From Gammaproteobacteria bacterium (GTDB taxonomy: Bacteria; Pseudomonadota; Gammaproteobacteria; Ga0077554; Ga007554), in assembly GCA_040183005.1 (NCBI GenBank), contig JAMPIW010000007.1:1806188-1870187 (forward strand): DNA of 64,000 bases. Reading direction: 5' to 3'. A program made the translations under genes and the position numbers. Every line of letters begins with the position of its first letter. Position 1 is the stretch's first letter. Under the pieces are notes generated by a model. It saw only the letters and a list, made by a program, of their open reading frames with translations. It made no database searches and had not been told where the DNA came from. This document shows, in pieces, positions 13,528-54,644 of the stretch.

Positions 13528-13597
13528 TTGTTACAAAGGCAGGACGAAATTCAAGCTAAGCGTGATAATCTGATTGATGAACTGGAAAAACAACTAA
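13528..13597 (+). pseudogene. Possible C-terminal tail of a defence-type helicase
   Basis: In another frame from the integrase fragment the sequence reads LLQRQDEIQAKRDNLIDELE, continuing KQL. Such Gln/Arg/Glu-rich tails, with an AKRDxLIxxLEKxL pattern, resemble the C-termini of large SNF2/DEAD-box helicases found in restriction and DISARM-like islands. The upstream part is missing, joined directly to the integrase fragment, and the end is interrupted by the palindromic element starting at 13598. Identification is tentative. Confidence 0.35.
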
Positions 13598-13740
13598 TCC
13601 TACTGTGGCACAGAGTGATCAAGGGATGCAGTGCAAGGCAAAATCGGGCGAAAAAGCGGGGTTTACACGGAGTAAATGAGTATTTTGAGTCCGATTTTAA
13701 CGCCGCAATGCACCCTTCAGCGCTTTGTGACACAGTAGGA
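13598..13740. repeat. 143-bp palindromic element, copy 1
   Basis: Nearly the whole 143 bases form one imperfect palindrome. The terminal arms (13598-13615 and 13723-13740) match with two mismatches, and the centre is TTTAC-ACGGA-GTAAA. The core is shared with 29789-29931 and 54463-54605. Inside it are the conserved blocks GATGCAGTGCAAGGCAAAAT and CGATTTTAACGCCGCAATGC. No reading frame inside looks real. It lies between the helicase fragment and mntA. Confidence 0.9.
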
Positions 13741-13774
13741 CTTAAAGAATACCGACATCCTTATGGAGGCTGCA

Positions 13775-29757: not shown

Positions 29758-29788
29758 ATTTGAGGCGGACAGGGAACAGCCCATCTAC

Positions 29789-29931
29789 TTCTACTGTGTC
29801 ACAAAGTGATCAAGGGATGCAGTGCAAGGCAAAATCGGGCGAAAAAGCGGAGTTTACACGGAGTAAATGAGCATTTTGAGTCCGATTTTAACGCCGCAAT
29901 GCGCCCTTCAGCGCTTTGTGACACAGTAGAA
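29789..29931. repeat. 143-bp palindromic element, copy 2
   Basis: The outer arms (29789-29806 and 29914-29931) are perfect 18-base complements. The core matches copies 1 and 3. The right end directly abuts the tsaC stop codon (29932-29934). Compared with copy 1, the second base pair of the arm is T-A instead of C-G on both sides. Confidence 0.92.
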
Positions 29932-30489
29932 CTACCCGGGCCTGACAATCTTACCGGTTGCGGCATCGCGGATCTCGCTGGGATTTCTCCGAGGGCCTAT
30001 CGCGCCGGACAGGATGCAATCAATGGAATCGCCGAAATAGCCACGCACCTGCAAGGCGTTGCGCGCGGGTTTGCGCCCACCCGGATTGGCGCTCGTGGAG
30101 ACAATAGCGCCACCGAACGCCCTGCACAGCGCCGCTGCCTGCGGGTGGTCGGTGACACGCACCGCGAGGGTGTCGTGTGCGCCGCGCAGCCAGGCCGGGG
30201 TTTCGGGTGTGGCGGGCAGCAGCCAGGTGACGGGGCCAGGCCAGGTGCGGCTTATTTTGTCCATGATGGCTGGATCAAGCGGGCAAACAAACGGCGTGAG
30301 TTGCTGGAAGTCGCTGGCGATCAGGATCAACCCCTTTTCCATGGGGCGATTCTTCAGCCTCAGCAGACGCAGCACCGCTTGCGCATTGAGCGGATCACAC
30401 CCCAGCCCGTACACCGCCTCGGTGGGATAGGCGATGACCCCGCCCTTGCGCAGTTCACGGGCAGCTTGTTTAAGACGCCAAAAACTCAA
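29932..30489 (-). CDS. tsaC: Threonylcarbamoyl-AMP synthase TsaC
   Basis: A 185-residue YrdC-fold enzyme that makes threonylcarbamoyl-AMP from Thr, bicarbonate and ATP for t6A37 tRNA modification. The family marks GGVIAYPTEAVYGLGCDP, RLKNRP, PGPVTWLLPA and VSTSANPGG are present. It is the short TsaC form without the Sua5 domain. The ATG at 30489 overlaps the purD stop by 4 bases, so it is translated after purD. Its stop is the exact border of palindromic element copy 2, so the element or its insertion may have trimmed or replaced the natural 3' end. Confidence 0.95.
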   Translation of the reverse strand: MSFWRLKQAARELRKGGVIAYPTEAVYGLGCDPLNAQAVLRLLRLKNRPMEKGLILIASDFQQLTPFVCPLDPAIMDKISRTWPGPVTWLLPATPETPAWLRGAHDTLAVRVTDHPQAAALCRAFGGAIVSTSANPGGRKPARNALQVRGYFGDSIDCILSGAIGPRRNPSEIRDAATGKIVRPG

Positions 30490-54431: not shown

Positions 54432-54462
54432 TCGAAAGCCCACGGTTTATGCGGGTTGGGCT

Positions 54463-54605
54463 AGAACCTGTTCACGATCTCGATCAAGGGATGCAGTGCA
54501 AGGCAAAATCGAACGAAAAAGCGGAGCATACATGAAGTATGTGAGCATTTTGAGTTCGATTTTAACGCCGCAATGCGCCCTTCAGCGAGATCGTGAACAG
54601 GTTCT
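54463..54605. repeat. 143-bp palindromic element, copy 3 (divergent arms)
   Basis: The arms (AGAACCTGTTCACGATCTC at the left, its complement at the right) pair perfectly over 19-20 bases but differ from the arms of copies 1 and 2. The core is nearly the same. Differences inside the core fall in pairs: CATAC/GTATG replaces TTTAC/GTAAA at the centre and TCGA/TCGA replaces TCGG/CCGA further out. It lies between rpe and gph inside a likely operon. Confidence 0.92.
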
Positions 54606-54644
54606 TGGGTGCGCAGCACCGTCACCCAACATCCGCTCTGTATT

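Follow-up and report, generated by a model that had tools for sequence, protein, structure and literature searches.

Palindromic MITEs that combine one structured core with the ends of different transposase families

The window, which is the whole analysed stretch of 64,000 nucleotides from a gammaproteobacterial genome (G000), contains three copies of a 143-bp palindrome, which in fold, model score and copy number is far beyond chance. Judging from sequence comparison, these copies are best described as insertions of a non-autonomous palindromic MITE, the ends of which appear to have been swapped among unrelated transposons, and they apparently belong to a superfamily in which the structured core persists while the ends are exchanged. 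The reading preferred here, at a probability of about 0.65, is that the elements are moved in trans by DDE transposases that would recognise their ends, and that the core is kept through one folded strand and a widespread host factor. The features of the three copies are given in Table 1.

Table 1. Features of the three palindromic elements (positions are those of the window)
Feature	Position	Strand	Remarks
Copy 1, type B palindromic MITE	13598..13740	+	flanks CTAA (13594-13597) and CTTA (13741-13744)
Copy 1, conserved structured core	13632..13707	+	model R1, 90.8 bits
Copy 2, type B palindromic MITE	29789..29931	+	ends match IS701-family IS
Copy 2, target duplication CTAC	left 29785..29788, right 29932-29935	.	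direct sequence reading
Copy 2, conserved structured core	29823..29898	+	model R1, 98.9 bits
Copy 3, type A palindromic MITE, element proper	54464..54604	+	core read on +; site empty in G001, G002, G003; IS5-family IS ends
Copy 3, left outer arm GAACCTGTTCACGATCT, IS5-family terminal repeat	54464..54480	+	identical letters at both ends of IS5-family IS, L281
Copy 3, right outer arm, inverted terminal repeat	54588..54604	-	reverse complement of left arm
Copy 3, left target-site triplet CTA (TNA class)	54461..54463	.	relatives' empty sites GGTTGGG-TTA/TCA-GGTG
Copy 3, right target triplet TTG, decayed	54605-54607		
Copy 3, conserved structured core	54497..54572	+	model R1, 97.3 bits
Copy 3, apical hairpin CATAC-ATGAA-GTATG	54527..54541	+	equivalent apical letters, unspecified in the scan, pair in 124 of 124 matches listed

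As initially annotated, the three copies have equal length and align without gaps; for copy 3 (54463-54605) this length stands, but the outermost A:T pair is part of the target duplication and does not belong to the element proper. The paired changes described in that annotation are also present: in the core of copy 3, TTTAC:GTAAA is replaced by CATAC:GTATG and TCGG:CCGA by TCGA:TCGA, and between copies 1 and 2 an arm pair changes from TCC..GGA to TTC..GAA. The pairing, which had been called perfect, is however broken by conserved internal loops (G/GA, A.A, GSAG/TGA and AAG/AAC) and by several outer-arm mismatches in copy 1. The elements (141-143 bp) have long inverted arms, and no gene lies within them. 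On the + strand the consensus of the core is TGC AAG GC [10-bp variable stem] G AAAA A GC GSAG [NNNAC] N5 [GTNNN] TGA GC A TTTT GA [variable stem] AAC GC N GCA, and the three copies match the core model with E-values of about 1e-21 to 1e-24, which are rough for this model. RNA folding gave z = -12.6 for the + strand and z = -11.8 for the - strand against shuffled sequences; since both strands fold far better than shuffles, the strand cannot be chosen from fold energy alone.

Evidence for insertion comes from the joined flanks of eight copies of the own genome, which were searched in relatives and then aligned. Orthologous sites were found uninterrupted in congeners, and that of copy 3 is uninterrupted in all three listed in Table 1. 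At L012, the empty site CTTA-AAAAAA of G003 corresponds to CTTA-GAACC..GGTTC-TTA-GAAAAA in the own genome, a 3-bp TTA duplication, and L015 has a TAA duplication at a site that is likewise empty in G003. Type B copies are flanked by duplications of 3-4 bp with a central TA (CTAC in copy 2, TTAG in L023, ATAA in L022), and in the Pseudomonas class nine of the 19 copies have an identical 4-bp duplication, nearly always YTAR, against 3.9 in shuffled pairs. The transposable hairpin suggested in the initial annotation is thus borne out by target duplications and empty sites. To explain arm exchange, the same annotation had proposed that the core enters palindromes already in place, and the flanks of a few copies do pair by eye (L113 and L151). 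This explanation, for palindromes as for terminators, is scarcely credible: flank pairing shows no excess over shuffled flanks (7 against 4.5), the outer arms are transposon ends, and the empty sites lack the outer arms, which refutes it at the loci tested, as the arms were acquired jointly with the core, with a short TA-type duplication.

The TAA target of L015 (G000 C4:174864-175006) is also occupied in G002 (L261, C37:2281-2434), with the core in the opposite orientation, through either a second independent hit on one target or an inversion by arm recombination; the orientation at a site is thus not fixed. Two more repeat families of this genus, one of about 120 bp beside L011 and one of 36 bp (TGTTGGGTCCGCTTCGCTTGACCCAACCTACA) beside L012, lie in the left flanks of these loci, each with many hits in G001-G003.

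The outer arms in the own genome are of three types: A (GAACCTGTTCACGATCT), B (TCCTACTGTGTCACAAAG) and C (GGGTACCTCTAAAAATTCG, in L192 and L196). The type A end matches, over 16-20 bp at both ends, IS5-family elements of Xanthomonas campestris (854 bp, TTA duplication) and Moraxella osloensis, and the type B end matches IS701-family elements of Burkholderia glumae (1482 bp, TTAG/TTAA) and Bradyrhizobium (the right end being weaker in the latter). These BLAST matches are short, with E-values of 0.04 to 2 each, and come from other genera; the match at both ends, the transposase annotation and the agreement with the independently found duplication lengths together make chance unlikely. In Pseudomonas, copies have the end CAGGCCGTTGAAAAA with a CTAG duplication, which is the end of the IS5-family element ISPst12. 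No IS match was found for the type C end, and the core is absent from the IS named above. A transposase with matching ends, for which the initial annotation had proposed a check, was found in IS5 and IS701 families of other genera but not in the own genome: a search there for an autonomous partner found none, no A or B end pairs occur at IS distance, and other ends are present on those DDE_Tnp_1 IS that were examined. One IS of the own genome (e.g. L220 and L242), encoding a 402-aa DDE_Tnp_1 transposase, is present in about 22 near-identical copies, far above its relatives. The model predicts that the remaining end types (GGGTACCTCTAAAAA and, in Alistipes, GAGAGTGAATAAAAAG) belong to further transposases.

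The own genome has about 26 core matches, and separately at least 22 longer matches plus fragments; dozens of matches are found in each of all seven relatives from the family; many copies in G003 are 98-99% identical to copy 3, indicating recent amplification. Both core variants occur with A arms (CATAC in copy 3, TTTAC in L017a) and with B arms (TTTAC in copies 1 and 2, CATAC in L017b and L027), so that arms and cores reassort. Because the core is contiguous, its two arms can be exchanged together in one conversion tract running from one shared flank to the other, and no special or folded-strand mechanism is necessary for the swap. The initial annotation had taken the paired changes to imply selection or a copying mechanism acting on the folded strand; for the exchange of cores between arm types this is not required, but for the double changes inside the arms it holds, in the form of structure selection, arm-to-arm copying, or both.

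Among individual copies, the type B copy L195 (G000 C2:227198-227285) retains both outer arms and has lost the entire inner hairpin. Insert modules recur at fixed stem positions (L019 and L194; L016, L027 and L081; L024, L025, L028 and L192; L073 and L098; L057, L161 and L205), and one of them (GACCGGGCTGGCGCACCAGCC) is common to Halomonas (L073) and Pseudomonas (L098). Most copies lie on one strand contig-wide, with ratios of 9:4, 6:2, 8:3 and 6:1 in the complete genomes G117, G294, G320 and G327, and of about 17:6 on contig C7 of G000; by eye, and with the origin position not located, the copy strands in these five sequences form no two-block or replichore pattern that would link them to the direction of replication.

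A scan for the core, with 24 specified bases and free stem letters, found at least 119 stretches. Hosts among the matches listed are Pseudomonas, Halomonas, Marinobacter, Nitrosomonas, Gallionella, Methylococcaceae, Magnetococcales, Mariprofundales, Desulfobacterales, Desulfuromusa, Thermodesulfatator, Balneolales, Alistipes, Bacteroidaceae and one Clostridia bin; many of these are metagenome bins, so single host assignments may be wrong. The outer arms vary by host. Of 370 gammaproteobacterial genomes sampled evenly across the class, 138 (about 37%) had a match to a covariance model of the core, as did 112 of 273 genera. In 13 named hosts, which include Bacteroidota, Balneolota, Desulfobacterota and Zetaproteobacteria, model R1 found from 3 to 149 copies per genome: 149 in Mariprofundales (150 candidates scored), 101 in Desulfobacterales, 71 in Pseudomonas chengduensis, 46 in Balneolales, 40 in Rikenellaceae, 36 in Thermodesulfatator, 32 in Alistipes and 23 in Magnetococcales. 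The core is rare in mobile records (five viral contigs and a few plasmids), and none of the phage records matched either of two queries. Neither this spread over many phyla nor the identity of the differing outer arms with the terminal repeats of two transposase families had been remarked in the initial annotation. A MITE is commonly regarded as the decayed remnant of a single insertion sequence; in the present case, a core with cross-phylum conservation of sequence and structure outlasts its ends, and one genome alone has ends of two or more transposase families. As the hairpin is kept nearly constant across phyla while the ends change, something beyond one transposase probably preserves it.

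The excess of pair-preserving changes is upheld in a much larger copy set, the opposite of the independent substitution on each side that the initial annotation had named as contrary evidence. At the three apical pairs, the letters of which the scan did not specify, all matches listed are complementary (Table 1), with seven letter combinations. In 57 distinct diverse cores, 96.4% of cells pair and 17 of the 26 pairs have double changes; the double-change cells number 182 against 44.5 in shuffles of these rows, relatedness inflating such counts, and pairing falls to about 43% if the partner is slid by one column. The rows of alignment A1 were selected for at least 8 of 10 paired positions in the variable stem, whereas the apical stem is free of this selection bias.

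On the + strand, G.T exceeds A.C by 30:8 among distinct arms (symmetric filter, p=5e-4), by 47:23 and 65:23 in model alignments and by 20:9 in the outer arms. The purine internal loops are near-invariant; the loop columns that the scan had specified are so in alignment A2 as well, the rows of which are mostly relatives found by similarity (most loop columns conserved in 53-60 of the 61 rows, gaps included). Together, the two- to fourfold preference for G.T and the near-invariant loops point to selection on one folded strand, while a double-stranded or cruciform process predicts G.T equal to A.C. The G.T excess is modest and could partly stem from relatedness, model alignment bias or strand-biased mutation.

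It might also be supposed that these are ordinary MITEs only, in which hairpin-templated arm copying (quasi-palindrome correction) and the need of transposases for matched ends produce the double changes, while the core is a passenger that was inherited and spread through horizontal transfer. The outer arms of several copies do contain double changes from C-G to A-T, which need a non-wobble intermediate if the sides change one at a time, and the abundance of very similar copies in G003 fits such a view. It is nevertheless rather unlikely, since arm copying should also repair the conserved mismatches, yet the loops are near-invariant; since it predicts equal G.T and A.C, against the 30:8 observed; and since a neutral passenger would hardly stay near-identical across phyla while its ends change. 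The element also lends itself to telling structure selection and hairpin-templated arm copying apart in palindromes.

At 74 of the 84 loci, the core sits in the gap between roughly called ORFs, in many cases at a stop codon, and no neighbour gene is common to the loci. Its orientation to the flanking genes is not fixed (++ 18, -- 24, +- 23, -+ 9). The closeness of copies to gene ends and the rarity of divergent pairs (9), along with the + strand wobbles and RNA-like purine loops, would suit an element that encodes a structured RNA serving the host, for example at the 3' ends of mRNAs, with the transposon ends being incidental. Such a role is improbable given that orientation to genes varies, that orthologous sites in congeners have no copy, and that Rfam 15 gave no match at the gathering score and, at E up to 10, nothing more than weak and spurious matches of miRNA and other types.

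The best guess remains that a host factor acts on the element's own folded strand, as this best fits the cross-phylum conservation, the independence from one transposase, the strand sensitivity and the absence of a fixed gene orientation. In this mechanism, DDE transposases would recognise the outer arms, move the elements in trans and cut at short TA-containing targets. The + strand of the core would fold, either as DNA exposed during replication or transposition or as RNA, and be bound by a factor that most bacteria possess, which may raise the success of the element whichever transposase moves it. Cores and ends would reassort by ordinary conversion between copies, and newly acquired ends probably become symmetrical with the help of template switching from arm to arm on the hairpin. 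If the folded strand has a function, this is a very common bacterial structured element unlisted in Rfam, and a host factor shared by phyla is to be identified.

A bolder version, which is doubtful, makes the core itself the selfish unit. It would be a folded single-strand module of pan-bacterial range that recruits a host factor conserved across phyla (e.g. PriA, to load the primosome, or some other factor of replication or RNA) and survives by repeatedly acquiring locally available transposon ends, symmetrised by hairpin-templated copying. PriA primosome assembly sites are hairpins of single-stranded DNA recognised by a factor that most bacteria have, and the recognition hairpins in phiX174 and ColE1-type plasmids share the letters AAGCGG. 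The 5' side of the core, AAAAAGCG[G/C], contains AAGCGG, with the variant letters AAGCG[G/C]; the phiX174 site reads CGAAGCGG..hairpin..CCGCTGAGG, and that of ColE1 GAAGCGGAAAAGCGCC..GCATTTTC. Both have AAGCGG on the 5' side of the hairpin as in the core, but are located in replicons and not in transposons. With the core model they score 13.5 and 6.7 bits, which is not significant, and the resemblance is limited to AAGCGG and a hairpin; the PriA link is thus an idea and not evidence. Readings as an attC site or a kink-turn were set aside because the conserved letters do not fit them.

Several known systems resemble the elements. REP/RAYT elements differ, being 20-40 bp palindromes with a GTAG or CGTC tag and neither terminal repeats nor target duplication, whereas the present element has 143 bp, transposon ends and a duplication. 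ERIC, RUP, Correia, QMITE2 (PMC5896051) and Rickettsia palindromic elements are likewise near-palindromes of about 100-200 bp with tens to hundreds of intergenic copies, but their descriptions, as group-restricted elements with one kind of end, set them apart from the present core. TIMEs, the Tn3-derived inverted-repeat miniature elements, are also non-autonomous, found in Pseudomonas and moved in trans (PMC4133298); their ends are of the Tn3 family, while those here are of IS5 and IS701 with 3-4 bp duplications. The literal core motifs are absent from the open-access text searched, and topic searches gave analogues only, although ISfinder and subscription literature may describe single families. 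By the comparisons made here the elements are type II prokaryotic MITEs, which are intergenic elements of <500 bp with terminal inverted repeats, short direct repeats, a stable fold and IS likeness only at their ends (PMC10969869). The present elements share these features, being short, non-coding and multi-copy, with terminal inverted repeats, target duplications, empty sites and ends that match autonomous IS of other genera. They differ from type II MITEs (PMC10969869) in that one structured core is joined to ends of different transposase families in hosts of different phyla. Relative to the literature found, this combination of a single structured core with IS5 and IS701 ends, spread across phyla and absent from Rfam 15, is new.
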